This document shows, piece after piece, positions 1,234-24,574 of a stretch of DNA of 24,874 nucleotides. The notes under the pieces are model-generated. The model saw nothing but the letters and a program-made list of their open reading frames with translations, searched no databases and had not been told where the DNA came from. Each line of letters starts with the position of its first letter. Within the stretch, counting starts at the first letter, position 1. The DNA lies in IMG/VR virus record IMGVR_UViG_3300007513_000193, positions 1 to 24,874 of that record, one strand, 5' to 3'. This DNA is from a virus. A program made the translations under genes and the position numbers.

Positions 1234-4200
1234 ATGGCTACACGACAAGATGTTTTATTTGCCGCAGAAGATTATATAGCAAAATACCAATCATTTGCTC
1301 AATCTAATTTTCAAGCATATGATTTTGATACTTTAAAAGCGGCAATGGTAGATTATATAAGATTAAACTACCCAGAAGATTATAATGATTGGATCCAATC
1401 ATCTGAATTTATTAGTTTGATGGATTTAATAGCCTTTATGGGCCATAATTTAGCGTTTAGAACAGATTTTGCTACTCGTGAAAATTTTATGGAAACTGCT
1501 CAAAGTAGAGATTCGATATTAAGATTAGCCAGGTTCCTCGGATATAATCCTACTAGAAGCATAAATTCAAGTGGTGTGTTAAAAATTAAAACAATAAGAA
1601 CAACAGAAGCATTAATTGATTCGGATGGTAATAATTTACTGAACACTGATATTACTTGGAATGATTCTACAAATGCAAATGCATATGAGCAATTTTTAAT
1701 GGTAATGAATTCTGCATTTGGCAATACGACACAATTTGGTACTCCGTTTAAAGCGGCAACAATAGATGGTGTTAAAACTGAAATTTATAAAATGAATTCA
1801 CAAACACAACAAAATGTGACTCATACTTTTGCTGGTACTGTGCAAGGAGAATCTATACCATTTGAAATAACAAATGTTGATGTGGATGGAACATTAGGTT
1901 TATTTGAACCATATCCAGATCCTAATTCTGCTATGCGATGTTTGTACCTTAATGATGGAAAAGGGAATGCTAGTGCTAAAACAGGATTTTTCTTTTATTT
2001 TAAGCAAGGTTCTATAGAATTTAAAGACACGTTAATTTCAAGACCAATTGAAAATCAAGTTATAGATATAACAACATCAAATATTGTTAATGATGATGTA
2101 TGGGTTCAAACTATTGATCAAACAGGACAAATAGTAACAACGTGGATTCCGGTTGATACAGTAGTAGGATCAAATGTTATTTTTAATGCAGTCGATAATA
2201 ATATTCGAGATATTTTTCAAGTAGTTACTAATGCAGAAGATGCAATTAGTGTTAAATTTGCCGATGGTAGATTTGGTAATGCACCTAAAGGTATTATACG
2301 TATTTGGTATAGAGTAGGAAATGGTGAAGAATATACCATTAGAGCAGACGATATTCGAGATATAGAAATTACTATACCTTATTTTAGTAAGCATGATTTG
2401 CAATTATATGATTTAGTTGTTACACTAGATTTAGAAGAACCTATAAAAAATAGTGTATTAACAGAATCAAATACTAGTATACAAGCTAAGGCACCACAGG
2501 TGTACAGTACTCAAAATAGAATGGTATCAGCACAAGATTATGCGGTTTATCCATTGCAAGCATCGACAAATATTACAAAAATTAAAAGTACAAATAGAGT
2601 ACACAGTGGTCATACACGTTATGTTGATATTAACGACCCGACAGGAACATATAAAGATTTAACTATTTTTGGTGATGATGGATATATTTTTAAAGAAGAA
2701 ACATTTTTACGAAAAACATTAACATTACCTACTCCGTTAAATCCAACAGATATTATTGAGCAATACTTACAACCATATTTAGAAGAATCTGAAGTACAAA
2801 ACTTTTATTATCAAAAATATAAAAATGATTTTGTTTGGTCGGGTAGTACAACAGGAGATGATTTACATTTTACAACATCAGACGAAGCAACTCCTGCGTT
2901 AGCCGCAAAAATGTGGACTTGGAAAAAAGTAACAGGTTCTGCTAGACAAGCAACTGGTTATTTTGAAAAAGGTGCTACTACTCCTGATATAGTTGCTATA
3001 GGTAAAGATTCGTTAGATTCAATAGGTAAATTTTTAGTTGAAGGTGCAAATATAGAATTCGCAGAAGTGGATACTAACGGTAATTTTGTAGCAGGATCGT
3101 CAACTACTTGGGCGAGTATAACTGGAATATATGGAGATGGTAGAGGAGTTACAAGTTCTTCATTAGGTTACACAGGTAAAACTAAAGAAGAATATGGTAC
3201 TGTATCATTATCAAGGAATATACCAAATAATGTTAGAATAAAACGTATAGCACCTGCATATAATAATAAATTTAGTGCAACTGAAATTACAGCAATTAAA
3301 GATCAATTAGAACTTAATAATTCATTTGGTATACGATGGGATCATAGGAATAACCAATATGAAGTTATATTAGGTATTGATTTAGGGGAATCAGAATCTA
3401 CTGCTTTTAGTTTAACTGAAAGTACAGCAGGAACACAATCGGATAATAGTTATTTAATAAGAATAGAATTCCAAACAGACCAATGGGTGTTTTTAGCAAG
3501 AGCTATAAAATATAATTTCGGTTCAATAAAAAATGTTAGATTTTTTAACCAACGATTAGATAATAAAGTTAGTAAAATTACAAAAAAATCTACAAAGGAT
3601 GAAATCAGAATATTAGATATTAATTTACAACCTCTCACAACTGTCGGCGGAGGTTTAGGTACATCATTATTAACTGCAAATTATGATTTTGATATTGAAG
3701 GATTTTATACATATGATGATGGTTATACAGATCCACGTAGAGTATTATTAAAATTTGCAGATACTAATAAAGATTATGTGATAGATGATCCGTTTGCTTT
3801 TGATAGTATTGTAGGATCCAATGAAATTTATGTTGCAGATGAATTAGTAGACAATTATGTATATAAAACATTAATGACTACACCACCTCCAACAAATGCA
3901 GATGGTTCTATAAAATATTGGGTTTCATCTACATCGTATGATTTGGCAGATAAAGTAGAATATAATGGAGCAGAATATGAATCTAAAGTTGCAAGTAATT
4001 TAGGTGTGCTACCAACTGATACGTCTAAATGGTCGTATAAAAGAGATTTAATTTATGCAAAATATACAGGTAGATCAGGAGTACGATTTAAATGGAAGCA
4101 TGCCGCTAGTGAGGAAACACGAATTGATCCAGCGGTTACAAATATTATAGATACTTTTGTATTAACAAATACGTATAATACTGAGTTTAGAAATTGGCTG

Positions 4201-4791
4201 AAAAATGATAGGCGAGCAAAATATAAGCCATTGCCACATACTACAGAAGATTTAAAAACAATGTTTATGGCATTAGAAGATGCAAAAACATCTTCTGATA
4301 CAATAATTTATAAATCTTGTGAATATAAAATTTTATTTGGTACAGAAGCAGATTATGCATTACAAGCAAAATTTAAAGTAGTTAAAAATCCAACAACAAA
4401 TTTAACCGACAATGAAATAAAAGCAACAATAGTAGATTATGTTGATGATTATTTTGAACCTGATAATTGGGATTTTGGCGAAACATTTTATTTTACAGAA
4501 CTTGCCGCATTTATTCATAGAAATATGATAGGTATAATTTCTTCATTAGTAATTGTTCCAACAAATGCAGATTCTAGGTTTGGTAATATGTTTCAAGTTA
4601 CACCTAATGCTCATGAACTTTTTGTTAGTGCCGCAAAGGTATCAGATGTTGATATAGTTGATTCATATACTGAGACAAATATGAGAATTGCCGCAGGACT
4701 TGTTGAAACTCCAACAGCAACAACAAGTATTACAGGAGTCGTAACAGGTACAGGTTCTAGTTCTAGTTCAGGCGGAAGTAATTATTATTAA
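1234..4791 (+). CDS. 6: Baseplate wedge protein gp6 (baseplate J-like), enlarged
   Basis: This is a 1,185-residue protein of the gp6/baseplate J-like family, which dimerises to join the wedges of the contractile-tail baseplate. T4 gp6 has about 660 residues, so this version is nearly double. The N-terminal block (about 25-115) contains SEFISLMDLIAFMGHNLAFR and RLARFLGYNP, typical of gp6. The central block (about 417-486) contains KAPQVYSTQNRMVSAQDY and NRVHSGHTRYVDINDPTG, the most conserved gp6 signature. Around residues 893-936 a stretch with YWVSSTSYDLADKVEYNGAE and a following W looks like a carbohydrate-binding module (CBM5/12-like) insert. The C-terminal block (about 1070-1150) includes DYFEPDNWDFGETFYFTEL, and the protein ends in a Ser/Gly-rich tail. 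The ribosome site GAGGAA at 1219-1224 lies inside the end of gp25. Family assignment is firm; the insert is an inference. Confidence 0.95.
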   Translation: MATRQDVLFAAEDYIAKYQSFAQSNFQAYDFDTLKAAMVDYIRLNYPEDYNDWIQSSEFISLMDLIAFMGHNLAFRTDFATRENFMETAQSRDSILRLARFLGYNPTRSINSSGVLKIKTIRTTEALIDSDGNNLLNTDITWNDSTNANAYEQFLMVMNSAFGNTTQFGTPFKAATIDGVKTEIYKMNSQTQQNVTHTFAGTVQGESIPFEITNVDVDGTLGLFEPYPDPNSAMRCLYLNDGKGNASAKTGFFFYFKQGSIEFKDTLISRPIENQVIDITTSNIVNDDVWVQTIDQTGQIVTTWIPVDTVVGSNVIFNAVDNNIRDIFQVVTNAEDAISVKFADGRFGNAPKGIIRIWYRVGNGEEYTIRADDIRDIEITIPYFSKHDLQLYDLVVTLDLEEPIKNSVLTESNTSIQAKAPQVYSTQNRMVSAQDYAVYPLQASTNITKIKSTNRVHSGHTRYVDINDPTGTYKDLTIFGDDGYIFKEETFLRKTLTLPTPLNPTDIIEQYLQPYLEESEVQNFYYQKYKNDFVWSGSTTGDDLHFTTSDEATPALAAKMWTWKKVTGSARQATGYFEKGATTPDIVAIGKDSLDSIGKFLVEGANIEFAEVDTNGNFVAGSSTTWASITGIYGDGRGVTSSSLGYTGKTKEEYGTVSLSRNIPNNVRIKRIAPAYNNKFSATEITAIKDQLELNNSFGIRWDHRNNQYEVILGIDLGESESTAFSLTESTAGTQSDNSYLIRIEFQTDQWVFLARAIKYNFGSIKNVRFFNQRLDNKVSKITKKSTKDEIRILDINLQPLTTVGGGLGTSLLTANYDFDIEGFYTYDDGYTDPRRVLLKFADTNKDYVIDDPFAFDSIVGSNEIYVADELVDNYVYKTLMTTPPPTNADGSIKYWVSSTSYDLADKVEYNGAEYESKVASNLGVLPTDTSKWSYKRDLIYAKYTGRSGVRFKWKHAASEETRIDPAVTNIIDTFVLTNTYNTEFRNWLKNDRRAKYKPLPHTTEDLKTMFMALEDAKTSSDTIIYKSCEYKILFGTEADYALQAKFKVVKNPTTNLTDNEIKATIVDYVDDYFEPDNWDFGETFYFTELAAFIHRNMIGIISSLVIVPTNADSRFGNMFQVTPNAHELFVSAAKVSDVDIVDSYTETNMRIAAGLVETPTATTSITGVVTGTGSSSSSGGSNYY
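3910..4041 (+). other. Carbohydrate-binding-module-like insert in gp6
   Basis: Residues about 893-936 of gp6 follow the pattern W..STSY..ADKVEYNG..YE.KV followed by a later W. This is the usual spacing of CBM5/12-like chitin/cellulose-binding modules, in which aromatic residues contact sugar. T4 gp6 has no such module as far as I know. Motif-level evidence only. Confidence 0.5.
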
Positions 4792-4803: not shown

Positions 4804-7800
4804 ATGGCAGATTATTCTAGTAAAAACACCAGTGACCAGGTAGATAATACTATACCCGGATCTACAAGTAAAAATACTACAAAAAGATCTACGTATGATT
4901 TATTACCGGAATATCTTCAATCTGATACTAATAAAAAGTTTTTAAATGCTACATTAGATCAAATGATTTTAAGTGGCAATCCTAAAATTGAATCAGGTTA
5001 TATTGGTAAAAAAATAGGAGCAATACGAACATCAGCAAAAGATGTTTATACTGAAAGTAAAACAACCCTTAACAATAGATATCAAGTAGATCCTACAGTC
5101 GTAAGCCAAAACCCATCAACTTCAGAATATGAATCTGCTATACCATATGATGATATTATTAGTAAGTTAAAATATCTTGAAACTAACACAACAAATTTAG
5201 ATAAATTATTTTCTGATTATAATTATGCTTGGAAACCACCTATAAATTATGATATGTTTGTTAATTGGAATAGTTATGTGTGGTTGCCATTTGGGTTGCC
5301 TCTTGTAGGATTACATGGCGAAACAAAAGCAGGAATCGAAGGTAAAAGAACATACACAACATCAGCTCAAGTTATCCACGGAAACAGGACATTAACATTA
5401 GAAAACGGAATGCGACTTGCATTTATTAACGATACAAAAACATATTTGGTAACAGGTGTAGGTAAAAAGATAACCTTAATAGATGAAAGTACATTATGTT
5501 CAGTAACAGAAACTTCTATGGGGCTTGCTACACCAACTCAAGCTCTGGGTACAGTTGATACAGGAACCGGTTCTGTTGCAACTGCCTCAGTAGGAACACA
5601 AGGTACAAACTATGTTCATATACCATTTGTTAATGTATATGATCAAAGTGGTACACCAAGTACCCACGCAATATTAGAGGCTGATGTTAACAATGGTGCT
5701 GTAGATACCACATTGACAATTACAAATGCAGGAGCAGGATATGCAACTAGTGGAGTTACATTACATATTATGGGCGGACAAACTACAAGGCCTCCATATG
5801 TAAATGCGAATAAAGATGTCCATTATATGCATGAATATATTTGTATGGAAAAAAGTGCAAGAGATAATAATGCATGGTCTAGAGTTAATAATTGGTATCA
5901 TATTAATACTGTTCAAGCAGTAAACACAATGTTAAATCTTACTAAATCATTTAAATTAGATGGTATTATTGTTGACGATGATTATGCACAACGTCCTATA
6001 ATAGAATGGGAAAGAGATTTACATTTATATAATTATGGCACACATTTTAGAAAACCTGTTGATATTATTATTACAGAAGCAATGAATCCTGCTGATGGAA
6101 CAAACGGTTTTCTATTATCAGGCGGGTCTGCCGCGGCAGAAGTACATGATGGATATACAGTTCAAGATAATGATAGAGTATTATTTGTTAATTCTTCAAA
6201 TGACACATACAATAATAAAATTTATAAAGTTAATACAGCAAATACAGGTGCAACAGCCCTAACATTAGAAACAGATGGTAGAGGAGCAGGTCCTCCAACA
6301 CATGGTGATGTTGTTACAAGTTTAAATGGAACCACATTACAAGGTCAAGATTATTGGTTTGATGGAAGAAATGGACCAACGGCCCAGACATCTACTCAAA
6401 CAACATGGAGATTAGCACAAGAAAAAGGTACTAAAAATGTTCCAGTAAAGTTTGAATTATATGATACAACATTTCAACCGTTATCAGAATATAATGAAAC
6501 AGACTTTTTAGGTAATACAGTTTTTGAATATTTAGAAGACAAAACCACTGCTGATAGATCAGAGGATAAATTTTTAGGTTTTCCGTTAACATATGCAACT
6601 ACAAATTATTTGTCGTCTACTAATACTTCAAATTTAATGTTTAATAATTCTCATCAGCAAACAATGTATTTGTATGATAGAGGTACCATTCCAAAAGATA
6701 TATTAGGATTGTATTATCTAAGAAAGTTTGATAGAGACATTTCTAAATATGATTTTGATAATTGTTGGGAACAAAGTTACAAACAAATTAGAACACCTAT
6801 TACTATAACCCGAGATATTACAAATGCACAAGATGATTTTGTTGTTGATTTAGGTACAACTAATTTCGAACCAGAACGTGATTATAATGTTATAGCAACT
6901 ACAACAGGATTTGAATTTTGTTTAAAATCTGCTTATGGATTTGAAAAACTTTCAGGCATAAACCCTACACTATATTTGGCTAAAGGGCAAACTTATACAT
7001 TTGATATAACTAACGGAACTACAGCATTCCAAATACAAGATGCAAGTGCCTCGGCATATGGTACAGGTGTTACAAATAATAATACTCATAGTGGTATAGT
7101 TACATTTGCAGTAAGCGAAACAGAATCTAATGATGTATTATATTATTCTTCACCTAGTGGAACTGGTAAACTTATCATAATAGATAAAGTATTAGAGCAA
7201 GGATGGCCAGAAGTATATCATAACGGTGTAAGATTAACTCGTGATACACATTATATTTTTAATGGAAAAAAAGTAGTTATACCTTACGAAAGTTCAGGAA
7301 CAGACGAAACAGTTTCTGATGCTGGTGTACCAGTATTTTCTCCTGCTAATCAAACGCAAAGTACAGATAATTTATTAGCAGTAGGTGACATAGTAGATGT
7401 AAAATTTTATACTACAGATACTAGTGCTACAGATGAATGGGCATATGACGTTCCAACTGGACTTAAAAACAATCCAGGCAATGATGTATTGGGTAATATT
7501 TCGTACGCAGAAATATTTCCGCATATGATTGATTTAATTGATAAGCATCCTGGTTTAAAAGGTCCGGCATTTGGTAATAATAATTATAGAAGTTTGGGTG
7601 GTGAATCAGGATTTGGCGGAACAATTAATCACCAAATATCTCCTTTACTTAAACTTGGTTTAATGTTAGGAAATGAAAATTATGATTTATTATTAGCATT
7701 AGATTATACTGCTGATAGTTATAATGTGTTTAAAAAGAAATTCATACAAAAAATTGAACAATTATATGCTTCAATGGATTCCGGCACAAACACAAGTGCA

Positions 7801-10800
7801 TTAGTTGATCAAGCATTATATGATTTAAATTTAGGTAAAAATAATACATTTCCATTTGCAAATAGTGATATGGCGTATTATTTTAATATGGTCGAAAAAA
7901 CATATTCAGTTACAACATCGACTAGTACATTTACTTTACCTAAAACAATTACAAGAAAAAACCAATATCATAATCATGTGTATGTTTATACAGTAGATAC
8001 CAATGATGTTGAAACATTTGAAACTGAGTTTACATTAAATCCTAATGCAAATACTATTACATTGGGGACAGCGGTTGCATCAGGAAAAGTTGTCATAAAA
8101 GTTAGTATTGACGAAGGATTAAGTTTTATACCACCTACTCTTGCTAAATTGGGCGTTGCTCCAACGTATGTGCCAAAAAGTTATGTTGACGATACAGGTT
8201 CTAGAACAGTAGTTGTAATTGAAGGACATGACGGTTCAAAAACAGTAGCTCACGATTCAACTATTACAGGCTCGGGATCTGTTTTATCACACACGATAAC
8301 AGATTATAGAGATAAAGCATTATTAGAATTAGAAAATAGAATTTATGGACATATACAATCTGAGTTTAATAGCGACGATGACAATATAGTAACCTATTCA
8401 CATAGTCCAGAATCTAAACGAAAAGATTTAACTTTATTTCCTGGAAAATATCGAACAACGCCATATACAATAACTGATAGAAATAATTTTTATGATAATT
8501 ATTTTAACGCATTTAAGATTGCTCGAGGTATAACATTATTACCAAATACAGGATATGATGTAAATAATAAATTTACATGGAATTATAGTGCAGATGCTAA
8601 TGCCAATGGAATAGGATATTGGAGAGGCATTTATAAACATTATTTTGATACAGATAGACCACATTCTCATCCTTGGGAAATGTTAGGTTTTATAGGAAAA
8701 CCTTCTTGGTGGGATACACATTACGAATGGGTCAATGCTACTAAACGAAATAATATGATTTCTGCTTTGCAAAAAGGAATTATATCAGAACCTGGCCAAA
8801 CTATTGTTCAAGATATTAATGTTGCGAGGCCTGGTGCTACATTTCCTGTGGCCGCAGACGGAACATTACAAGATCCGGTTACCGCAACTTTAATGTCAAG
8901 TCCAACGGCTTTAGACGCCAAAGCAAGTTGGTCAATAGGTGACAACAGTCCGATAGAAACTGTATGGAAACGAACATCGTTGTTCCCATATATAGAAAAT
9001 GAATTTTTATTTTCAATAAATCCTGCAAAATATTTAGAAAAATATTATGATACAAAAGATAAAATAACTGATGGCGGAAATAAAGCAATAACAATTGATG
9101 TGACAACAGCCCCTAAGGCTGGTAACACCTCTGGTACAGTATTTTATTTAGATGGTGTCCAGCAGAAAAAATTAGTACTACAAGCAGGAAATGTATATAC
9201 ATTTAATTTAACAGATGCATCTTACAATACACATGATTTTCAATTATCAGAAGCATGGGAAGGCCAGGTCTCTGGACAGTATACAACAGGTTGGGACGAA
9301 GCAACTGATCCAACTAAACCTACATTTTCGCCAACTTCATCTACCCCAGAAATATTATACTATTATGATTCACAAGGTGGTCTTTACCACACCCAAGAAG
9401 GTGGTGTAATAGAAGTAGTATCTGTAGAACGTAAAAAACAATTTATATCTAATAAAACAAAAAAACGACATAATTCAAATGAATTATTCGTTCATAATGA
9501 AGTAGATAATAATAATTTATCTAGACGAATATTAGGATTGCAACAACCTATTGTTGATAGATTAATGTTTTTAGGTAATGATATATATGTAGATTTTGCT
9601 AGACAACTAAGACAGTTAAACACAAAATTAAGTTACAAAATGCAAGGATTTTCTAAAAAATCTTCTATATCTATGCTGGCAGATAGTTTACAATCAGAAA
9701 AATCAAATAACTTTATACCAAACGATGACTTAACTATTAAATTTCACACTTCATCACCATATAAAGAATATATTTATAGTGGTGTTGAAATTATTAAAAC
9801 ATCAACAGGTTATGCTGTTTATGGATATCATAATGATAAACCGTATTTTACAATACAAAATCAATTAAAGTCGACAATTAAACAAATTACAGTAAGTGAA
9901 ACAAATATTCAATTATATTCGGAATTTGATACAGGCACAAAACGGATAGATTATGGTACAGAATTTGAATCAGCAAATGATGTGTATAATTTCTTATATG
10001 CTTATGGAAAATATTTAGAAAATGTAGGATTTGAATTTAATTATCCTAATCAAGATGGAGTATATGAAGACTGGACATTAACTGCCCAACAATTTATATT
10101 ATGGTCTGAAGCCGAATGGGGCGACGACACATCTATTAAATTAAGTCCTGCAGGTAATTTATTATATTTTAAAACTACACATGGTCATATAAAAAGCAAT
10201 GATTATGAATATGGCAGTTTTTATTTAGATGTAAATAAATCTTTATTTGACTCAACGACTGTAGATGTAGATAGGCAATTAAGTTATATAACTGTTAAGC
10301 CTAAGGACGAAAGTAGGGCGATTTATTGTGCTTCGTTTGTTGTATGTGATTATGAACATCTGTTAATAATTAACAATAAAACAATATTTGATGATATAAT
10401 TTATTATCCTATTTTAGGTGATGCAAAACATAGATTTAAAATAGAATATTTAAAAACTCCAGAATGGAATGGCTCATTACATGCGCCTGGTTATTTAGTT
10501 TATGGTGACACAATATATGAAAATTTTGATAAAACTGTAGACAATATAACCTCTAGTTATTTTGCATCTGAGCAAACAGGATTGAATAAAGATAGTATAA
10601 ATGTTGCTAGAAAAAATATTGGTTATGAAAAGAAACAATTTTTAAGAAATATGCGTCTTTCAGAAGATGTGCAATTTCAATTTATGAAAGGAGTAAGCCA
10701 TTTAAAAGGTACACCTGAAGTTTTTAATAGATTGACTAGAAGTACATTTTTACTTGAAGCAAGTGTTGATATTAATCTAGAAGAAGAATGGATGTTTAGG

Positions 10801-16800: not shown

Positions 16801-17001
16801 TGTACTAGGGGTGTAGCCGGAACAGCGGCGGCAACCCATACATCAGGTGCAACAGTAACATCAGCAGGGCCTACAGTAGCACTTCCTGTAGATCCTGATC
16901 CTGAAGCATATAACGCATTTAATGATGATGGAACTACTACAATACAAAATAGCACGAATACACAAGCGGCTCTTATAAATGTAGGAAAAGGAACCATATA
17001 A
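4804..17001 (+). CDS. Giant modular baseplate/tail structural protein, 4,065 residues
   Basis: One uninterrupted frame occupies half the window, starting six bases after an AGGA ribosome site (4794-4797) and directly after gp6, where T4 carries gp7 and gp8. No enzyme motif is visible. Conserved-looking blocks I recall from large marine T4-like structural proteins are LPEYLQSDTNKKFLNATLDQ (about 33-52), NWNSYVWLPFGLP (about 155-167), FDTDRPHSHPWEMLGFIGKP (about 1280-1300), FMKGVSHLKGTPEVFNRL (about 1960-1977), WDPFKGIVPGIAEAEIDIIS (about 2595-2614) and EVKPYHSKIETVFDSR (about 3880-3897). Between them lie inserts: GxGY motifs (about 308, 3240, 3365), two cupredoxin-like domains (703-793, 1428-1539), a CBM-like motif (about 2130-2165), a propeller-type repeat (2887-3129) and a C-terminal GCTRGVAGTAAATHTSGATV module. 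It is probably a gp7-like wedge scaffold with surface inserts. The structural role is confident; the gp7 equivalence rests on gene order. Confidence 0.85.
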   Translation: MADYSSKNTSDQVDNTIPGSTSKNTTKRSTYDLLPEYLQSDTNKKFLNATLDQMILSGNPKIESGYIGKKIGAIRTSAKDVYTESKTTLNNRYQVDPTVVSQNPSTSEYESAIPYDDIISKLKYLETNTTNLDKLFSDYNYAWKPPINYDMFVNWNSYVWLPFGLPLVGLHGETKAGIEGKRTYTTSAQVIHGNRTLTLENGMRLAFINDTKTYLVTGVGKKITLIDESTLCSVTETSMGLATPTQALGTVDTGTGSVATASVGTQGTNYVHIPFVNVYDQSGTPSTHAILEADVNNGAVDTTLTITNAGAGYATSGVTLHIMGGQTTRPPYVNANKDVHYMHEYICMEKSARDNNAWSRVNNWYHINTVQAVNTMLNLTKSFKLDGIIVDDDYAQRPIIEWERDLHLYNYGTHFRKPVDIIITEAMNPADGTNGFLLSGGSAAAEVHDGYTVQDNDRVLFVNSSNDTYNNKIYKVNTANTGATALTLETDGRGAGPPTHGDVVTSLNGTTLQGQDYWFDGRNGPTAQTSTQTTWRLAQEKGTKNVPVKFELYDTTFQPLSEYNETDFLGNTVFEYLEDKTTADRSEDKFLGFPLTYATTNYLSSTNTSNLMFNNSHQQTMYLYDRGTIPKDILGLYYLRKFDRDISKYDFDNCWEQSYKQIRTPITITRDITNAQDDFVVDLGTTNFEPERDYNVIATTTGFEFCLKSAYGFEKLSGINPTLYLAKGQTYTFDITNGTTAFQIQDASASAYGTGVTNNNTHSGIVTFAVSETESNDVLYYSSPSGTGKLIIIDKVLEQGWPEVYHNGVRLTRDTHYIFNGKKVVIPYESSGTDETVSDAGVPVFSPANQTQSTDNLLAVGDIVDVKFYTTDTSATDEWAYDVPTGLKNNPGNDVLGNISYAEIFPHMIDLIDKHPGLKGPAFGNNNYRSLGGESGFGGTINHQISPLLKLGLMLGNENYDLLLALDYTADSYNVFKKKFIQKIEQLYASMDSGTNTSALVDQALYDLNLGKNNTFPFANSDMAYYFNMVEKTYSVTTSTSTFTLPKTITRKNQYHNHVYVYTVDTNDVETFETEFTLNPNANTITLGTAVASGKVVIKVSIDEGLSFIPPTLAKLGVAPTYVPKSYVDDTGSRTVVVIEGHDGSKTVAHDSTITGSGSVLSHTITDYRDKALLELENRIYGHIQSEFNSDDDNIVTYSHSPESKRKDLTLFPGKYRTTPYTITDRNNFYDNYFNAFKIARGITLLPNTGYDVNNKFTWNYSADANANGIGYWRGIYKHYFDTDRPHSHPWEMLGFIGKPSWWDTHYEWVNATKRNNMISALQKGIISEPGQTIVQDINVARPGATFPVAADGTLQDPVTATLMSSPTALDAKASWSIGDNSPIETVWKRTSLFPYIENEFLFSINPAKYLEKYYDTKDKITDGGNKAITIDVTTAPKAGNTSGTVFYLDGVQQKKLVLQAGNVYTFNLTDASYNTHDFQLSEAWEGQVSGQYTTGWDEATDPTKPTFSPTSSTPEILYYYDSQGGLYHTQEGGVIEVVSVERKKQFISNKTKKRHNSNELFVHNEVDNNNLSRRILGLQQPIVDRLMFLGNDIYVDFARQLRQLNTKLSYKMQGFSKKSSISMLADSLQSEKSNNFIPNDDLTIKFHTSSPYKEYIYSGVEIIKTSTGYAVYGYHNDKPYFTIQNQLKSTIKQITVSETNIQLYSEFDTGTKRIDYGTEFESANDVYNFLYAYGKYLENVGFEFNYPNQDGVYEDWTLTAQQFILWSEAEWGDDTSIKLSPAGNLLYFKTTHGHIKSNDYEYGSFYLDVNKSLFDSTTVDVDRQLSYITVKPKDESRAIYCASFVVCDYEHLLIINNKTIFDDIIYYPILGDAKHRFKIEYLKTPEWNGSLHAPGYLVYGDTIYENFDKTVDNITSSYFASEQTGLNKDSINVARKNIGYEKKQFLRNMRLSEDVQFQFMKGVSHLKGTPEVFNRLTRSTFLLEASVDINLEEEWMFRLGEFGPESKQTTKEFTLKNTDIKANPQLINFGEIYQGQATDFDYDTTISMLGGDGRWLEQPSTNPAVQFSTRPIFDQSIDTLAEIETYEKDLPNAGYPRLEETSYQVFKLEDLPTLYDKYKDDDSSLLYKLLQTPNWKDTYTYAKGYYVRYKGKRYTSTRIINAAAKSFYGIVNAKYTKTHASGNLAELVIEKCVFTVDGISKVTATADPYLYGITGVTARFGEFDFTYYSPVDRPSTSSVDSSVQRGVDANGDFTYIFSFADGAIPAINIPADDDKMYLSAFNYKTDAEVSGNVTDRWIETGEAGLFNVWTADTGAGDWSTFNLQDDNFGIEQICKGYETGDEALIKLGVDHNLAEGDYVMITGAENNPALNGIHKVTGFPTGSDCQTCGLRENKQFYIDEFVGSNEVYGKVFAFRKSRFSDYSAMFSSIADTKWSWVTNNYAYCDAYYDVQALAIGASSAAGSYNPSFAGGTSFTLTSTYELVYPATAGDLDVYVGEFRQKFEPGSGGTKAWEVIGTTIVFYPENLGGTFQAGQPVMIVYKNRTKGWGSFKYDATNRTFIEVNKQQPKADTGQLANVIVYDYEQNKELARAEVWDPFKGIVPGIAEAEIDIISGYDQALYNATTQDTETLTSTRNWGQHEVGISWWNLNTVRYIEYEQPLDLDYTFKHWGEQFPGSSMDIYEWTKSTVAPDEWVTLVEGNYEIDGEIASGEAYTKILSGVTHYYWCEEEALDPQTGQVSTFYYFWVKNKTSVPQTQSHREISTKVIGEYLNDPTAQGLFWAAPGGVSNIITGNVGERLTQNSVFQINFTSDIDDSHKEWITIREEDQETTIPNRFANRLHESILGIDENKDLLKIAGIEEDQNYTYTTPTPTGAGLFTFVKASATVSSQDSDVRDVKFNTDGTKMFMLGRGNDKVYEYSVSTAFDVSTITYAQSLDISSQDVSSNSIEFNTDGTILIMLGQNTDKVYEYALSTGFDLSTASYTDSFDVSTQELQPYGLAFNNDGTKMYVTGWAGDDINEYTLTTGFDISTASYSQNFDVSSEAGKPSAVQFQSDGTTMYVLNGSGAPTIFKYTLSTAFDVSTASYSNKSFEVTDQETKARGFCFSNNGLQMFLCGWAGDDINEYTVHGASTTYSAKKYNYDWNQKLEYMANDVVKSSAKLYKTHKELPLVKTNTKLSIDNQTTTIQLRIGEKAGELTFPASVEIGNPPAESNTYGLPYENVVAYAYANIVSGKVDSIVMNRPGQGYNSATPPTVTISAPTSEGGIQATVIDSDITIVNGEITAIAMDSTRKGSGYENSYAVIDEGESNEEIVELKYYDRFATRRFNADVNMLTNGDFEQKTTAFWSTKLGTIDPTGKVATVAIYGGGTGYSSGIAATTGGSGTGLTLDITQINGVIQSATVQTGGGGYAVGDVVSVTGGTDGTFTIATVNSNAVVYGLASGVYTGESQNATHYVGQKGLKNANLAGGTILQNIQYQGKALFKTNTSLDSVKLKYGHSATDVDFDAMTAVTLTPQTSSEETSLGTTLVYSVQGEFVSSTDDYHAMWLEIEVPDSNGFVMHIDSMEFTNPAVGDRIIVSRAAQSTTAVAHDQYATFKELGNFNRQRWQELLTYNWIDDRNISVDSPNMVPNLRLHNIFRYGGQIRPYKQSWIKSRVEAIRALIQNANKNLLKINLSDSYLNWKKHLGQSFAKGNSTFAPQDYWKYVDWFHPDFTISSSSVAQYTVGARNELYDVNEDVYSVVRVDSDDADGNWAFYQWVDDSWFKIGKQNGTIELSSLLYDVQDVDAGWDAAEYDIGGWDKNYTNELQAILKGLHEDIFIDTYKQYYKELFFTIIHFIYAEQTNLDWVAKTTFLQLQRKTPGALTPKTFDVGSEEDILAYLNEVKPYHSKIETVFDSRTFEEEINASADEVVDIRVQTNTSGSTETADSRAFRMFIDNTGTRIYETIIDANKTTATEDLDSKETEISVTSITPLPTAPGEVVIGAERIRYETTNTGVLQGCTRGVAGTAAATHTSGATVTSAGPTVALPVDPDPEAYNAFNDDGTTTIQNSTNTQAALINVGKGTI
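6910..7182 (+). other. Cupredoxin-like domain 1 of the giant protein
   Basis: Residues about 703-793 contain NPTLYLAKGQTYTFDITNG, then FQIQDAS, then VLYYSSPSGTGKLIII. This matches the beta-sandwich pattern (L.L..G..YTF...., later LYY....G) of cupredoxin-like inserts common in marine phage structural proteins. The usual copper-ligand loop (Cys, His, Met after LYYY) is absent, so it is expected to be metal-free and purely structural or adhesive. Confidence 0.5.
9085..9420 (+). other. Cupredoxin-like domain 2 of the giant protein
   Basis: Residues about 1428-1539 repeat the plan of domain 1: LVLQAGNVYTFNLTDAS, then HDFQLSEA, then ILYYYDSQGGLYHTQEGG. The LYYY segment keeps a His and the GG turn but has Asp where family members with a full copper site carry Cys, so it is a degenerate copy. 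It lies about 725 residues after the first domain, with conserved baseplate-like sequence between them. Confidence 0.5.
13837..13868 (+). repeat. 32-bp exact direct repeat, copy 1 (propeller unit 3)
   Basis: A 32-base run encoding GWAGDDINEYT is identical at nucleotide level to 14149-14180 in unit 5, while the intervening unit 4 is clearly diverged at the same place. Exact identity including third codon positions suggests recent duplication or recombination among blades. Confidence 0.85.
14149..14180 (+). repeat. 32-bp exact direct repeat, copy 2 (propeller unit 5)
   Basis: Second copy of the 32-base run found at 13837-13868, 312 bases downstream and in the same reading frame, so exchange between copies would remove or add two blades (104 codons) without a frameshift. 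Confidence 0.85.
16675..16860 (+). other. C-terminal GCTRG-type module of the giant protein
   Basis: Residues about 3958-4019 carry EISVTSITPL, then GEVVIGAERIRYETTNTG, then GCTRGVAGTAAATHTSGATV. I recall this short beta module from ends and linkers of many phage tail proteins, where an IGxExIxY strand is followed by GCTRGxxGTxAxxHxxG. It suggests a small appended domain rather than baseplate core. Function unknown. Confidence 0.5.
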
Positions 17002-17665: not shown

Positions 17666-20600
17666 ATGCCATATGATGTAAAAAATTACAAGGGTGCTTC
17701 AATAGCAAGTGTACTAGAAGGTACAGTTAACACCCAGACCCCTTTAAAATTAGTAGGGCAAAACTATAAAAATTATGGACAACTTATTGCAGAAAATTTT
17801 GTTCATATAGTAGAAAATTTTTCTAGAGATATTGCACCTACTAATCCTATTGTTGGCCAACTTTGGTATAAACCATCGGATGGTCACATATACATGTTAG
17901 ACCAAGATGCTAACAACAAAACCAAATGGAAGTCAATGGCTACATTGGATATTAGGCCAACAGATCCTGTTGATGATGCAAGTGGATATACACCTCGAGA
18001 AGGTGATTTTTGGTTTGATAGTGCGGCTGATAAAGGTATATTAAACATTCGATATAAAAACGACGAAACAGGTGTTTTACAATGGGGTCAACTTAGTGTA
18101 CCTGTTGCCGCAGATGCAACATTGCTTTTTCAAAATGTTTATGATGATTCTGCCGCAGGACAAACAACTACACCTCCTGTATCTCATGCATGTATTAAAT
18201 TTGTTGTTGATAGTAAGGTTATTGGTATATATTCTACCGGTGAAAAAGAATGGTCACCTTTAGGAAAATTAGATGGCACACCTTTACAGATTCAAAGTGG
18301 TGGATCTTCTGTAACATATGATGTTGAATCTCATCCTGATGGGTCTGCATTACATACATCATTTCCGTTTGTAAATGCAGGATTAACATTATCTGGTGCG
18401 TATGATCCAGATCTTCAAACAGGATCTACCGAAGGAAGAGAATATCAAGTTAAATTTCCTGCTCCAGGAGCAGGCGGTACTATGGCGGAAGGTTATCCTG
18501 TTATTAATAAGTCATTGCAGTCAATTGAATCAATTGTTATAACCAATCAAGGTAGTGGTTATACTGCATCTACCGTTAGTACATGGAATACAAATGGTGC
18601 AAGTGCTTTTGATCAAATACCCGCAGGACAAGGACCTTCAGGAACAGCACCAGCCCTTACTGCTGTATTAGGAACAGCAGGAACAGAATTTGAAGATAAA
18701 ATTATATCTGTTACAATAGGTAATGATACAAATGGAAAAGCAGGCGGTAATGGATATTTTACACCTCCTATTAAACCTGCTTTATCAGGTAATATTCGTA
18801 TAGGAAGAAATGCAACTGATTTTGCAGATTTTAGTAATCTTCAAGCAGGATTTGGTAGAAAAATTACAGCAATTAGCATATTAAATGCTGGTACAGGTTA
18901 TACTAATGGTACTATAATTATTCAGGCTCCTACTGGAGAAGCAGGCACCACAGCAACCGCTTCCATTACAACAGATGCTGGTGTAATTACTGCCGTTACA
19001 ATAGCTAATCAAGGTGATGGTTATACATATGCTCCTTCTACTACAAATGGAGGAATAACATTTACAGGTACAGCAGGTGCAGGAAATGGCGATGCTGTAT
19101 TAATGGCTGTATTAGGAGATGATAGATTATTATTAGATAGTAATGCTATTAGTGGTGATAAAATACATGGTGGAAATATATCTAGTTTTGAATCAGGAGC
19201 TATTAGTGATCTTACTGATTGGCACAGAAACGATCCAGGTATTGCAGGGTTAACAACAAGAGATGGATATGGTACAGACGAAGGATTAGCCTCAGATACT
19301 GCAACGGTTCATGATAACGATAAAACTGCATGGTCTAGTTATACATATGGTGGATCAGCAGGTGCATGGACATTAGCAATGACAGATGCAGTTGATGCCC
19401 AACAACGAAGACGAGTAGGATATGTTAATGTTGCATATGAACGAGAACAAACATTAGGTACTTCATCCGGAGCAGTAACAGCCGATGGTGGATTAAGAGT
19501 AGATGGCGGAGCCCACATAGGCAAAAATTTACATGTTAATGGTAGTGTGTCTGTAACAGGATCTTTATATACCGGTGGTAATATTAATAATATAGAAGTA
19601 AACAATTTAACTATTGAAGATAATTTAATAGAACTTAATAAAAGTCAAACAGATTTGGCTTCATCTAACGCAGGATCGGCGCCATTAACAGGTATTTCGG
19701 GTTTATATATAGATAGAGGATTGCTTGCAAATAATCAAGTACCATTTTCTACACTATTATGGGATGATTCAGATTTTGCATTATCCGGTACAACACCAAC
19801 AGGTGGGGGACCTATTAATAAACAAGAAGACTTTTTTAAGTTAGGTACATTTACTGGTAAAACTGAAGGTGATTTAGATAATGAAGAAGCCGCAGGCGAT
19901 GATCCAGAAGATGGATCCTTAAATCAAGATACAATTTCCGGATTTAAGTTAGCAAGTTTAGATGCATTGATGTATACTGCTCAAGCAGGTGTTAAATGTG
20001 ATATAATAAGTGATAGTCAAGGACACGAAGCAGTACCTACTGATAGAGATGTTGGAGGATTTATTGCAAGATACAACGGATGGCCTCAAGATAGTGCGGC
20101 CGCGGCGTACCCAAATACATTAGCAGATGCCGATACTGAATATAATGATGCTGGTGGTTATCCAGGTAAAGATCTTATTTTAGTTGATAGTGACGAAAGA
20201 ATTGTTAGAGGTGAGTTTCATTTTTATAGAGATGCATATCCATGTGATGGGTCAGATTCATTAGTGAATGCAGGAGTTAGCATCGGTGAAGGAGGAGCAT
20301 CATCTACTAAGGTAAGTGGTTCTAGTGGTGACAATTTATTTGTTATTAGAGATGGAGCAGTAACTACCCAAACTGATTCACCAGGAACATTTATGAGAGG
20401 ATCGGGAGGACCTGGTGCTAGATGGAATACACAGGGAGCTACCGCAATAGATTTAGATGCAACAAGTCCAGATATTACATCTGCAACTTGGGCAGGAGTA
20501 GATATAACAAACAGTTTTCTAGAAGATCCGATATGGTTTGTTGATAATGGCGAAGGCCAGGTGTGTGCATTACGAGAAGGTAGAGCAATAGGATGGAATA

Positions 20601-22465
20601 GACCAAGAATCCATGTGCATGATACAGATACCGATTATGGAACAGGAGCATTTGTAATACCTACAGTAGGAGCAGATGGTACTATAGCAGGTGTTGAAGT
20701 AATGACTAAAGGAAAACATTACTCAGAACAAGGCCCTGTAGGTATAGTAGGCGAGGCAAGAGATTCAACTACTGCAAATGCCAGTTTAGGACAAAATGCT
20801 GTAATTGCAGTACAATATTCTTCAGGTACTGTAAGTGGTGCATCGGCTTCTCAAGCAGGTAATAATTATAGAACTCCTAAACCTTTTAAAGAAGTAAATT
20901 CAACTAAGTTTAATGGTGTATTGTGTTCGGATCCATCCCAGGCAGTTTCAACTCCTAGTCCAATGATAGACGGACCGCATGTGGATGATAGTTCTCAAAA
21001 ATTTGTAGGATTATATCCTATAATGGATGGTCATAATGATGGAGCATTTGACAAGACAAAACCATTTGACGGATCAGGTATGACAATTGGTACTCATAAT
21101 TTACATTATGTTGATGGATTTATTAAAAATATAAGAGTTGAAAATCATTGGAATATTGAAGAATGCTTAACTATTTTAAATAGAGCAACTCATTCGTCAG
21201 GCACAGATGCAAAAGCAAAAACTAATCTTGGGGCAATAGCAACTCATAAAGGCAAAGCAGAAACTTCTGTATATGCATTAGGCGGACCTGATGATGCAGG
21301 CGGAACAGGTAGAGTTTATATCTGTGCTGAATCACAAGGCGATTCAGCACCAGCAGAAGTTGTTGTCGAAACACTTGCTAAAGGCGATTCTATAGGTAGA
21401 ATTCACGTTAAGGCCGAAACAGATGGTAATCATACTGCTGGGGTTCAAGAGAGTAAAGTTTATATAGAAGCCAAAGGGAGTAATACAGCCTCAGGTTCAA
21501 CTCTTTTTCCATACGGACAGCGAACATTGTGGGATGGGTCGGCCGCAGGTAATATAGAAATTGAAACTAAAGCCGATGACGGAAACGAAGTTCATCTTCA
21601 AGCAACAGATATGGTGGTTATTGAAGCCCCTGATAATATAGGTAGAACATCGGCTACACCAGCTGGAACTGTTGGAACAATGGCTGATTGGTTAACTAGA
21701 TTTGAAGTAGATGCAAAAGATACAAGATTAAATGGTCATATACACTTAGGTGATGGAACTTTAGTTGACCCTGGTACAACTGATTTATGGGACAGACATG
21801 TATTTTTTAATTCATTTATCGGTTCTCATGTAATGCCAGCAACAGATAGTGATGATGTCAGTGCGGCACTTGATGGTCAAGGTTGGGATTTAGGTGCAAC
21901 AAATGCTGAAACAAGTATTTCTCAACATCATGCTGGATTAACAGCAACTGGTGCTACCGATAAACGTTGGCGTACACTTTATGTAAGAAATATTAGTGCC
22001 GGATCTAATGCATCAACTGGATTAATAGATGGCGATTGGTCCTTAACTGCTGGGTCAACTTTCCAAGCAACATATACCGCTGACTTAGCAGAACGTTATG
22101 AAGCAGATGATAATTTAGAACCAGGTACAGTAGTTGCTATGGCTGGTACTGCTGAAGTAACGGCAACTACCTCAGAAAATGATGAAGATGTATTTGGAGT
22201 AGTATCAACAGAACCTGCCTTTATAATGAATGGAAGAGCAGGTACAAACGAAACGCATCCATTAATAGCAATGACCGGGCGGTGTCCATGTAAGGTTGTT
22301 GGAAAAATAAGTAAAGGTGATAGATTAGTGTCATCCTCAACACCGGGCAGAGCTAGAAAAGCAGACTTGACAAATGATTCAGTATTTGCTATAATAGGTA
22401 GAGCGATCGAGGCACACGACTCTGACGGAGAAGGCACAATAGAAATCGCCGTTACTAGAAACTAA
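17666..22465 (+). CDS. Tail-fibre-like structural protein, 1,599 residues
   Basis: Large mosaic fibre-type protein. Residues about 10-92 (LEGTVNTQTPLKLVGQNYKN, YGQLIAENFVHIVENF, NPIVGQLWYKPSDG) match an N-terminal module common in phage fibres and probably anchors it to the particle. GxGY modules follow at about 289, 409 and 449. Residues about 604-659 (LRVDGGAHIGKNLHVNGSVS, then NLTIEDNLIELNK) form the regular short-strand pattern of trimeric fibre shafts. The C-terminus (about 1434-1599) contains RWRTLYVRNISAG, TYTADLAERYEADDNLEPGT and VFGVVSTEPAFIMN, a terminal module typical of phage fibre proteins, perhaps related to intramolecular chaperone ends, although no S74-type Ser-Asp pair stands out. 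The start at 17666 follows the previous stop by 12 bases with a modest AAGG site. It probably contributes to host recognition; receptor unknown. Confidence 0.8.
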   Translation: MPYDVKNYKGASIASVLEGTVNTQTPLKLVGQNYKNYGQLIAENFVHIVENFSRDIAPTNPIVGQLWYKPSDGHIYMLDQDANNKTKWKSMATLDIRPTDPVDDASGYTPREGDFWFDSAADKGILNIRYKNDETGVLQWGQLSVPVAADATLLFQNVYDDSAAGQTTTPPVSHACIKFVVDSKVIGIYSTGEKEWSPLGKLDGTPLQIQSGGSSVTYDVESHPDGSALHTSFPFVNAGLTLSGAYDPDLQTGSTEGREYQVKFPAPGAGGTMAEGYPVINKSLQSIESIVITNQGSGYTASTVSTWNTNGASAFDQIPAGQGPSGTAPALTAVLGTAGTEFEDKIISVTIGNDTNGKAGGNGYFTPPIKPALSGNIRIGRNATDFADFSNLQAGFGRKITAISILNAGTGYTNGTIIIQAPTGEAGTTATASITTDAGVITAVTIANQGDGYTYAPSTTNGGITFTGTAGAGNGDAVLMAVLGDDRLLLDSNAISGDKIHGGNISSFESGAISDLTDWHRNDPGIAGLTTRDGYGTDEGLASDTATVHDNDKTAWSSYTYGGSAGAWTLAMTDAVDAQQRRRVGYVNVAYEREQTLGTSSGAVTADGGLRVDGGAHIGKNLHVNGSVSVTGSLYTGGNINNIEVNNLTIEDNLIELNKSQTDLASSNAGSAPLTGISGLYIDRGLLANNQVPFSTLLWDDSDFALSGTTPTGGGPINKQEDFFKLGTFTGKTEGDLDNEEAAGDDPEDGSLNQDTISGFKLASLDALMYTAQAGVKCDIISDSQGHEAVPTDRDVGGFIARYNGWPQDSAAAAYPNTLADADTEYNDAGGYPGKDLILVDSDERIVRGEFHFYRDAYPCDGSDSLVNAGVSIGEGGASSTKVSGSSGDNLFVIRDGAVTTQTDSPGTFMRGSGGPGARWNTQGATAIDLDATSPDITSATWAGVDITNSFLEDPIWFVDNGEGQVCALREGRAIGWNRPRIHVHDTDTDYGTGAFVIPTVGADGTIAGVEVMTKGKHYSEQGPVGIVGEARDSTTANASLGQNAVIAVQYSSGTVSGASASQAGNNYRTPKPFKEVNSTKFNGVLCSDPSQAVSTPSPMIDGPHVDDSSQKFVGLYPIMDGHNDGAFDKTKPFDGSGMTIGTHNLHYVDGFIKNIRVENHWNIEECLTILNRATHSSGTDAKAKTNLGAIATHKGKAETSVYALGGPDDAGGTGRVYICAESQGDSAPAEVVVETLAKGDSIGRIHVKAETDGNHTAGVQESKVYIEAKGSNTASGSTLFPYGQRTLWDGSAAGNIEIETKADDGNEVHLQATDMVVIEAPDNIGRTSATPAGTVGTMADWLTRFEVDAKDTRLNGHIHLGDGTLVDPGTTDLWDRHVFFNSFIGSHVMPATDSDDVSAALDGQGWDLGATNAETSISQHHAGLTATGATDKRWRTLYVRNISAGSNASTGLIDGDWSLTAGSTFQATYTADLAERYEADDNLEPGTVVAMAGTAEVTATTSENDEDVFGVVSTEPAFIMNGRAGTNETHPLIAMTGRCPCKVVGKISKGDRLVSSSTPGRARKADLTNDSVFAIIGRAIEAHDSDGEGTIEIAVTRN
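21965..22462 (+). other. C-terminal ADLAERYEAD/PGTVV module of the fibre-like protein
   Basis: Residues 1434-1599 carry ADLAERYEADDNLEPGTVVA, VFGVVSTEPAFIMN, HPLIAMTGRCPCKVVGKISK, GDRLVSSSTPGRARK and a final EGTIEIAVTRN strand. This arrangement recurs at the C-termini of many phage fibre and appendage proteins. Some related ends are autoproteolytic chaperones; whether this one is cleaved cannot be told from sequence. Confidence 0.6.
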
Positions 22466-22477: not shown

Positions 22478-24574
22478 ATGGCCGAATATCAAGATAGGAC
22501 CGGTTACAATGTAGGTATTGTTGGCGGATCAGGTGGATCTGAACCAGCTGATACTATCGAAGCACAATGGATAAGAAAACTAGAAAGAGATTTGTGGATT
22601 AGGTTTTGGGGTCCGGGTCCTATTTGTACGGATTGGGACGACAAAAATGAATACGAACGGAGTTGTGGTTGGAATCAATCAGCTAGTTATGATGCAGGCA
22701 CATCTGGTTCCGGAACATCATCTGCAGGTATGGGTGATATGTCTGGAAATCCCTATTCTCATGTTTCTGCTGGAGGAGTTGGGTCAATTCCGGTATCTAC
22801 TTCTGATCCAAGAGATGCTTATGGATATGGAAAATTTACAGTATTACCTAATATAACTAATGCTTCTAAAGCAAATCCATGCAGAGTTACATGTGTAGGT
22901 CATGGCTTATTAGATGAAGCACACGAAGGTAGTACTTTATCTGCTCCTAATTATATACAAATAGTACGTGTCCCTTCGACTAGTATGTATCAATTAAATG
23001 AACAATATTTTTATGCAAAAGTTATTGACGCCGATACATTAGACTTATATGATAATGAAGCAATGACAGTTCCCCATGATTCTAGTTCTTACCAAGTATG
23101 GGCAGGATCAGAAGGACATATTAATTTTGTTATAGATTTTGTTGCAGGAACAGGTGATACAGGTAATTACGAACGAACAACTACTATTGCTAGAGATCAA
23201 TATGTAGCAATACAACAAAGAATAAATGCCGCAATAAAACGTACAGGGCAATCTACTTTTGCTACAGGGAACAGTAAAAAAACACTTGATCTTGCTACAG
23301 AACATGGAGCAATGAGAAAGTCTGACGGTTCTCCGACAACAGATATATTAGAAGATATGGGCCGAGTCCGGGACGATCATGTAAATGCAATGTCGGATGA
23401 AATAGAACGGATAGGAGGAGCCGGTTCAACACCTCCTAATACATCTTCATTAGGTGGTTATAATTTTCATAAATTACATGTAGACGGAATTTATGCTCCT
23501 TATTCAGTGAACAATAAAGACACTGATGTATATAGTGAAAATATAGATCAAGCAAGTGGATCGTTTAGCAATAATTGGGGTTCAGATAATTGGGATTCCG
23601 CTGGCGTTTGGTCTGGCGGTAGCCATAATATACCGTGGAGTGATAGTGGAGGAACTGAATATGGAAATGATAGACCATTTCTAGAAGCTCGAATGACATT
23701 TTTAGATTGGAACCATATGCGATACTGGTTTAATCAAGGAGGTTGTTGTGCATTTCATCCAGATTATACTGGATCTGGAAGTTATGGTAGTTGGATGTGG
23801 CAAAATTTAGCAAAAGCAAATAATCCAGGTCCGGCCGCCGCAAAGGTTTTTATCGGCCAATTTAATCCTTATCATGAAAATGCCGCACTTATAAGTACTG
23901 GTCAAATTACTTTTCGTAATGGAGGATCTGGTAATGGATGGACAGTTACTGGAGATTGTCCTAGGGTGCATGGATTAGGAGATAAATCCAATGCATATTT
24001 TACTGCCAGCGGAGGTGCTACATCGAACGGAACAACAATAACAGTAAGTTCGTCCGCGAATATGGCCCAAAATGATATATTACATATAGGTCCTTGGTTA
24101 GGCGAAATAGAAACTATAACAGACGCTACAACGGTCGAGCTTTATCGAAAGATGCGAAAAATTAATGGAACAGAATATGATCCTGATCCTACTAACGGCG
24201 ATGGGCCGTTAACTAATTTAGACATAGCATGTAGTAAATGGTATCGAGCATGTCAATACGACGGAAATGCAGGGTTATACGGTGATAATAATCCTTTTCC
24301 TAATAATGAAAGCATTAGTGGCGATCCATATATTCATTTTGATTGGAGATTTGTTAAAGATCATACCCAATCAAACAAACCATGTATTTTTTATAGAATG
24401 ATGTATGATAATGCATCGGTCCATGCTACAGTTCATGGTACTGGTACAATGCGAATGGGTAGCAGATGGGCCGATACTGTAGGATATTTTTATCCTGAGC
24501 AAGGAGCTAACCCAACAGTGACTAAGGATAATGCATCAACTGCTGAAGGCCATGACGGTTTTAATAGAATTTAA
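22478..24574 (+). CDS. Unassigned structural-type protein, 698 residues, Cys-rich
   Basis: I do not recognise the family. The N-terminus (GYNVGIVGGSGGSEPADTIE, then WIRKLERDLWIRFWGPGPIC) leads into a Gly/Ser-rich linker (about 71-103). Residues about 122-213 (NPCRVTCVGHGLL, IQIVRVPSTSMYQLNEQYFY, KVIDADTLDLYDNEA) resemble the FCCH-like beta modules (GHGL...N...Y.V...DA.T..LYD) found in phage tail proteins. Residues about 508-561 (GTTITVSSSANMAQNDILHI, IETITDATTVELYRKM) look like another short beta module. Ten cysteines, including a GGCC motif and Cys50/Cys63, make it far richer in Cys than its neighbours. It is co-directional with the fibre gene, 12 bases downstream, with AGGAAA at 22468-22473. 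It is probably a fibre or baseplate decoration; confident as a gene, weak as to role. Confidence 0.6.
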   Translation: MAEYQDRTGYNVGIVGGSGGSEPADTIEAQWIRKLERDLWIRFWGPGPICTDWDDKNEYERSCGWNQSASYDAGTSGSGTSSAGMGDMSGNPYSHVSAGGVGSIPVSTSDPRDAYGYGKFTVLPNITNASKANPCRVTCVGHGLLDEAHEGSTLSAPNYIQIVRVPSTSMYQLNEQYFYAKVIDADTLDLYDNEAMTVPHDSSSYQVWAGSEGHINFVIDFVAGTGDTGNYERTTTIARDQYVAIQQRINAAIKRTGQSTFATGNSKKTLDLATEHGAMRKSDGSPTTDILEDMGRVRDDHVNAMSDEIERIGGAGSTPPNTSSLGGYNFHKLHVDGIYAPYSVNNKDTDVYSENIDQASGSFSNNWGSDNWDSAGVWSGGSHNIPWSDSGGTEYGNDRPFLEARMTFLDWNHMRYWFNQGGCCAFHPDYTGSGSYGSWMWQNLAKANNPGPAAAKVFIGQFNPYHENAALISTGQITFRNGGSGNGWTVTGDCPRVHGLGDKSNAYFTASGGATSNGTTITVSSSANMAQNDILHIGPWLGEIETITDATTVELYRKMRKINGTEYDPDPTNGDGPLTNLDIACSKWYRACQYDGNAGLYGDNNPFPNNESISGDPYIHFDWRFVKDHTQSNKPCIFYRMMYDNASVHATVHGTGTMRMGSRWADTVGYFYPEQGANPTVTKDNASTAEGHDGFNRI

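Follow-up and report, generated by a model that had tools for sequence, protein, structure and literature searches.

Many palindromes lacking a GA or GG step are purged from a T4-like jumbo phage, and a modified guanine may shield those that remain

Introduction

Why does a stretch of phage DNA with 34 GCSGC pentamers (S, C or G) hold not a single GCWGC (W, A or T)? The stretch, hereafter the window, is the whole 24,874 b of the IMG/VR virus fragment IMGVR_UViG_3300007513_000193. It is 100% identical to positions 9704-34577 of contig G001 (minus strand; 85,740 b), which contains all of it. The phage is known from environmental DNA. Its sequence was pooled across several metagenomes, and the genome is unfinished. 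By contig overlap, the window is flanked by G019/G021 on one side and by G025, G028 and G031 on the other; the overlaps are 99.6-100% identical, and that between G025 and G001 is just 3.9 kb long. The non-overlapping total of 361,338 b comprises 321,577 b in which the rule described below was found (322 kb) and 39,761 b added later. The gp25-like and gp6-like baseplate genes place the window among T4-like jumbo phages.

Results

GCWGC is avoided at the DNA level

We counted 0 GCAGC, 0 GCTGC, 22 GCCGC and 12 GCGGC in the window (GCWGC-free from 1 to 24874, no strand, by direct count). All 34 GCSGC spanned in-frame Ala-Ala junctions; the gp6-like gene has 8 of them, a giant open reading frame (ORF) 13, the gene of a 1599-residue protein 9 and that of a 698-residue protein 4. 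This recount agreed with the first-pass annotation of the window. The seven complete genes use GCA 339, GCT 154, GCC 71 and GCG 31 times, and ahead of GC the Ala codons were GCC (22) and GCG (12), with no others. The dozen or so GCWGC expected by the annotation corresponds to base composition (13.1) and is too low. A Markov model gave 26.1, shuffles keeping the protein and the per-gene codon usage gave 28.8 ± 2.3, and a second null also preserving the next base gave 25.7. The codon shuffle, which the annotation had proposed as the check, never reproduced the zero (lowest value 22 in 400 shuffles). GCWGC had the strongest z-score depletion among the ranked palindromes of the window.

The avoidance extends beyond the window, where a normal frequency would have spoken against the annotation. 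In the 322 kb of overlapping contigs, 7 GCWGC (raw count) were found against 289 expected under the codon null. By contig, the observed and expected numbers were 1/90 (G001), 2/72 (G002), 0/44 (G003), 0/26 (G004) and 0/22 (G005); the sister contig G006 had 17/31. G003 (88% of codons in common with the window) and eight clade members (61-66%) carried GCC or GCG at every shared Ala-Ala junction, with the exception of one GCT (L010). Seven sister contigs used GCA or GCT at 13 of the 27 shared junctions. At conserved Ala codons of G004, GCS had changed to GCW at 32 of 56 codons elsewhere and at 0 of 19 ahead of GC. Third-base switching everywhere but before GC indicates long-lasting selection acting on DNA. 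Similarly, HGCGCD was found 0 times in all three reading frames, against 36, 11 and 32 expected (322 kb). Of the 110 other loci with at least 10 GCWGC expected (near-duplicates counted), 9 also had a ratio below 0.15, and the avoidance is therefore no specific tag. As a separate observation, G001:7997-9422 and G006:1130-2555 are 91% identical and both free of GCWGC, while the longer alignments are otherwise 74-82% identical; judging from the sequences, a recent exchange is likely.

Sites with a GA or GG step are spared

An all-word scan of 237 kb showed that AGCGC, ACGCG, AAGCTT, GTGCAC and much of AGCT were missing as well. GCGC and AGCT were depleted in all three reading frames and spared beside a G. 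Every GCWGC that was left had a G on its 5' side or a C on its 3' side (8/8 in 361 kb and 4/4 in the related contig G035). For CTGCAG and CGCG the flank effect was opposite to that of GCGC and AGCT, yet a single rule covers them all: sites are spared when they contain, or directly follow, a G whose next base is A or G (GR). GA and GG each spare sites, and the base after GG is immaterial. Classes 0, 1 and 2 denote the number of strands with such a GR, and figures for motifs are observed/expected numbers in this class order.

In the 322 kb, the values were 0/16, 0/44 and 39/29 for CTGCAG, 0/17, 8/48 and 36/29 for CGCG, 0/39, 52/95 and 31/40 for CASTG, 0/80, 37/80 and 10/9 for GCGC, and 0/217, 5/66 and 3/5.5 for GCWGC. 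AGCT was lowered with some sites left (77/504, 153/171, 19/10; another estimate put the expectations at 493, 172 and 11). Seven motifs (GCWGC, GCGC, GTGCAC, GCATGC, CASTG, CGCG and CTGCAG; AGCT left out) together gave 0/395, 111/357 and 122/120. The window alone, which lies within this discovery set, gave 0/36, 10/31 and 10/10. Six control motifs had ratios of 1.02, 1.02 and 0.93, and the control motifs CATG and GTAC were near 1. We also counted G-containing palindromes with an expectation of at least 6 as depleted if their ratio was below 0.15. In 361 kb, 15 of 39 were depleted in class 0, 4 of 44 in class 1 and 0 of 66 in class 2, and 13 of the 15 had zero occurrences; some palindromes are nested (e.g., AAGCTT within AGCT), so these counts are not wholly independent. 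Many palindromes without a GA/GG step have been cleared from the genome by selection, at hundreds of sites.

CTGCAG, CGCG and CASTG obey the same rule, and the idea that one enzyme recognising a GC-(W)-GC core is responsible was therefore dropped. The annotation had proposed selection against a restriction palindrome. Selection at the DNA level is borne out by the HGCGCD frames and the Ala third bases, but GCWGC is not its only target, given about ten non-nested palindromes. An enzyme of TseI/BbvI type may be one among several pressures. An apparent GANTC enrichment under the Markov null was gone under the codon null (0.85) and offers no argument for CcrM.

The rule in fresh sequence and in relatives

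In the fresh 39.8 kb of the phage, the seven motifs gave 0/48, 15/44 and 19/16. Contig G035, also fresh sequence, gave 3/47, 15/44 and 18/16, and the six pooled controls on fresh sequence stayed at 0.96-1.13. Other clade members gave 4/148, 63/141 and 51/46, and the sister group 28/122, 56/95 and 34/31. We then held the depleted motifs fixed and compared every combination of up to three dinucleotides. For Phosso as well as for this phage, {GA,GG}, identical to {TC,CC}, was the best pair; the triple GA, GG, TC scored slightly above {GA,GG} in this phage.

Phosso, a cultured Sinorhizobium phage (PV764938; host Sinorhizobium meliloti) with a gp6 relative at 36.5% identity, obeys the same GR rule. 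In 191 of its 469 kb, 14/43, 3/48 and 0/72 palindromes were depleted in classes 0, 1 and 2, with the motifs chosen from 91 of the 191 kb. All CTGCAG and CAGCTG sites left in the 191 kb have GR on one strand (11 and 33, respectively) or on two (23 and 13). It purges partly other palindromes (TGTACA, ACGCGT, AGTACT), and its GCWGC, GCGC and AGCT are near normal. The Agrobacterium phage Atu_ph07 (NC_042013), whose jumbo genome has a gp6 relative at 37%, lacks the rule (0/31, 2/40 and 9/52 depleted; 100 kb). It is instead depleted of several GR-containing palindromes (NC_042013.1; L295, L296): CCWGG 0/62, GGTACC 0/16 and AGATCT 0/20.

Among loci with at least 10 expected sites, CATG was avoided in 13 of 122, AGCT in 8 of 134 and ACGT in 6 of 134. 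CATG is nearly absent from the large phages L027, L028, L147-L150, L152-L154, L157, L159, L203 and L204, and further large phages lack AGCT, TCGA or ACGT. The distant relative L057 (gp6 33%, 45% GC) has no GCWGC, with unshielded GCGC at 0/11.5 and unshielded AGCT at 2/34.

A deazaguanine gene module

The phage encodes FolE (G025:19744-20418; phrog_2197, 5e-57), a QueE-like radical SAM protein (G025:22753-23589; phrog_2076, 7e-54), a phosphoribosyltransferase between them (phrog_8995, 1e-17) and QueD (G028:100716-101126; PF01242, 1.6e-14). Adjoining FolE is a putative glycosyltransferase (GT; G025:18665-19774) with 49% identity to an annotated glycosyltransferase of Phosso; its profile had no match to PDB sequences at E 0.1. 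Phosso has the same gene order (GT, folE-like, queE-like), and in PA5oct the GT lies near a 7-carboxy-7-deazaguanine synthase. GT, FolE, phosphoribosyltransferase and QueE occur together in at least 16 of 45 GT loci (43 from IMG/VR, near-duplicates counted, plus Phosso and PA5oct), many of which end early. Atu_ph07 gave no QueE match and was absent among 19 records with the GT (FolE not tested). The cyanophage BUCT-ZZ01 encodes QueE, a phosphoribosyltransferase, QueD, FolE and a relative of the nt-1 DpdA2.

Discussion

A shielding modification as the probable cause

We consider it probable that a modification of guanine in GA and GG, 7-deazaguanine-like and perhaps glycosylated, blocks restriction, and that the sites it leaves unshielded have been purged. 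The phage would be confronted by several type II restriction enzymes and would escape them in two layers. In the first, every G preceding a purine (GA or GG) would carry a bulky modification, probably a 7-deazaguanine derivative made via the phage FolE, QueD and QueE and perhaps glycosylated, and cleavage would be blocked at sites holding or abutting the modified G. In the second, palindromes without such a G are removed by selection, silently where possible. The cutting enzymes and their host are presumed from this pattern. GCWGC itself has no GR and gains one only from a G directly 5' of it on either strand, so that Ala-Ala junctions have to use GCC or GCG. A role for the glycosyltransferase in the modification is a guess from its gene position.

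Published systems offer partial parallels. The DNA of phages 9g, CAjan and nt-1 is protected against restriction by 7-deazaguanine modification (Hutinet et al. 2019, PMC6884629). These phages share FolE, QueD and QueE with the phage described here, in which DpdA/DpdA2 and QueC were not found in the sequence searched, the context appears to be GA plus GG whatever follows, and the GT and phosphoribosyltransferase sit with FolE and QueE, unlike in 9g, CAjan and nt-1. CAjan DpdA is reported to modify GA or GGC sites (statement in PMC8306585). AluI and HhaI cleave the DNA of 9g, which contains archaeosine (PMC5567051), in line with AGCT and GCGC being vulnerable. GCWGC is a site of N4-methylcytosine methylation in lake Chloroflexi (PMC6329791). 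Related literature includes PMC11480375, PMC9650216 and PMC11780129. Among the matches listed, judged by title and start of abstract, no open-access paper describes such a sparing rule.

Several observations weigh against the proposal. The rule was derived post hoc in the 322 kb. ACGT runs in the opposite direction (354/344, 84/143 and 6/9; 322 kb). AGCT-avoiding relatives, which may or may not carry the gene module, show the same contrast between classes (8/38 vs 0/58 depleted), with AGCT itself only partly rescued. The CGCG flank effect is common (2/44, 56/103 and 48/53 in twelve other loci) and, being present in many relatives, is not independent support. Together, the AGCT-avoider contrast and the widespread CGCG effect may mean that the pattern is partly of other cause or that more phages carry the modification. 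Among the other phages that avoid GCWGC, sites gain little from a G beside them (0/78, 0/29 and 1/3), which is adverse or neutral. The known 7-deazaguanine phages CAjan (50 kb; 2/29 vs 3/47 depleted) and nt-1 (100 kb; 8/40 vs 10/54) do not follow the rule. In PA5oct (41 kb), which has GT and QueE, just one unprotected palindrome of 27 was depleted, and the GT carriers from IMG/VR, pooled into four sets, had 0/16, 1/18, 0/32 and 0/31; with almost no avoidance, these neither test the rule nor support it. The authors of PMC5567051 saw no sequence pattern in the resistant sites of 9g, and DNA of MED16 (7-amido-7-deazaguanine) is cut by EcoRI, EcoRV and HaeIII despite GA/GGC (PMC8306585). These two reports indicate that the known deazaguanine systems vary.

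The searches for two further pathway genes also count against the proposal. Searches by phmmer and hidden Markov models with CAjan DpdA, nt-1 DpdA2 and BUCT-ZZ01 DpdA2 found no DpdA/DpdA2, within the limits of a divergent family, an unfinished genome and, for CAjan-type DpdA, a search that stopped short of the last 39.8 kb. The PF01702 profile fails even on CAjan and nt-1 and is uninformative for DpdA. QueC was not found by phmmer with CAjan QueC (G031, the last 39.8 kb, not searched), and the best PF06508 score in the unfinished genome was 18.9 bits, under the cut-off. The QueC candidate with that score, G025:90346-91239, was judged on reading to be another ATP-pyrophosphatase.

Alternative explanations

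Plain avoidance of several type II enzymes of the host, in DNA that carries no modification and with the flanks reflecting enzyme preferences, is an unlikely alternative. Rusinov et al. (2018, PMC6286503) describe type II site avoidance as widespread in phages; for non-temperate double-stranded DNA phages, they report eliminated sites (bias <0.1) in 7.1% of the type II cases. The relatives avoid other single palindromes mosaically (CATG, AGCT, ACGT), and the CATG avoiders show no flank rule. Near-complete palindromic site loss is common to those cases and the present phage, whereas in this jumbo phage many palindromes are purged together, and only those without a GA/GG step. Enzyme preferences would have to agree among unrelated motifs, as the rule is shared by motifs with the G inside (CTGCAG, CGCG, CASTG) and outside (GCGC, GCWGC, AGCT). 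They would have to do so again in Phosso with its partly different motif set and yet not in Atu_ph07, which has lost CCWGG.

The modified base could instead be a cytosine after a pyrimidine (TC/CC), opposite GA/GG, e.g., a hypermodified cytosine. We regard this as somewhat less probable still, although TC/CC is simply GA/GG on the complementary strand and a cytosine modification fits the data equally well. The phage has carbamoyltransferase domains (among the matches listed) besides the putative glycosyltransferase. The cytosine C5 methyltransferase domain PF00145 was found in 0/12, 0/5 and 0/4 records (G031 not searched), and FolE, QueD and QueE are present. These deazaguanine genes, together with the GA/GGC specificity reported for CAjan DpdA, tip the balance towards guanine as the modified base. 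The DNA methyltransferase domain PF01555 was found in 0 of 10 records (G025, G028 and G031 not included), and an unspecific Methyltransf_24 was present in the Pfam scans.

That an endonuclease of the phage itself cuts host DNA at these sites, the phage having cleared them from its own genome, is very improbable. PDDEXK_15 (among the matches listed), TnsA-like N-terminal, HNH_3 and Phage_endo_I domains are present, but about ten unrelated palindromes are too many for one nuclease, and Phosso and this phage avoid different sets under the same GR rule. A codon-pair bias that acts in translation and disfavours GCA or GCT ahead of an Ala codon can practically be discarded: with only 0.8 GCWGC expected outside the Ala-Ala frame the window alone is indecisive, but over the larger sequence HGCGCD, HAGCTD and HGCWGCD are lost regardless of frame.

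Other features of the window and the phage

The window encodes, all on the plus strand, a gp25-like baseplate wedge protein (856..1230; 124 residues; phrog_43, 1.5e-15) and a gp6-like baseplate wedge protein (1234..4791; 1185 residues; phrog_10646), whose GCSGC Ala-Ala junctions are at 1261, 1339, 1753, 2902, 4102, 4504, 4630 and 4690. The best named gp6 relatives are in Atu_ph07, Phosso, SCTP-2 and PA5oct (36-39% identity). The giant ORF (4804..17001; 4065 residues) is followed by the 1599-residue protein (17666..22465), termed a fibre in the annotation, with weak virion-structural matches (phrog_14394, 3.1e-10). The 698-residue protein (22478..24574) has no PHROG match; its junctions are at 23228, 23834, 23837 and 23882.

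The Pfam/PADLOC scans of ORF sets give the best 25 of 27, 51, 29, 29 and 97 families. They covered 46 of 49 ORFs of G001 outside the window, 19 of 44 of G003, 52 of 55 of G021 beyond 8 kb, 101 of 118 of G025 and 100 ORFs of at least 90 residues of G028; the new ORFs of G031 were left out. Among the matches listed, G028:25908-109853 (L220-L224) encodes much of the de novo purine pathway (AIRS family twice, GARS, AIRC, SAICAR synthetase, a Lyase_1 protein, AICARFT/IMPCHase, IMPDH and GMP synthase), together with isocitrate lyase, NifU-like and ClpS proteins. G021:40001-60000 (L122) has an ammonium transporter (Amt), coproporphyrinogen III oxidase, a class II tRNA synthetase and a ferredoxin-dependent bilin reductase, whose closest named phage is the pelagiphage Mosig (38%), and heme oxygenase is among the G021 ORFs. 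Among the matches listed for the 101 ORFs of G025 (L210-L214) are 11 radical SAM proteins, a PycTM-like effector and a MotA/ZorA-like protein. Host hints are weak: a Usg-like Pfam family (among the matches listed) and a gp6 relative at 62% identity whose contig was binned with a gammaproteobacterial metagenome-assembled genome, the sole match among genome contigs. The bilin reductase and Amt relatives indicated no clear host, and neither the host nor a restriction-modification gene was identified.

Implications

As a tentative extension, this T4-like jumbo lineage may carry a glycosylated 7-deazaguanine-type base at GA/GG, made by a route without QueC or a known DpdA (glycosyltransferase, FolE, QueD, QueE and phosphoribosyltransferase), and its restriction-site landscape may record the modification context. 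If the proposal is true, metagenomic sequence alone, with no need for chemistry or native reads, would reveal the context in which phage DNA is modified, and the purged and spared sites would form a map of the shielding. It would predict a glycosyltransferase-linked deazaguanine pathway that is testable in cultured Phosso, and it would mean that base modification and site purging cooperate within one genome.

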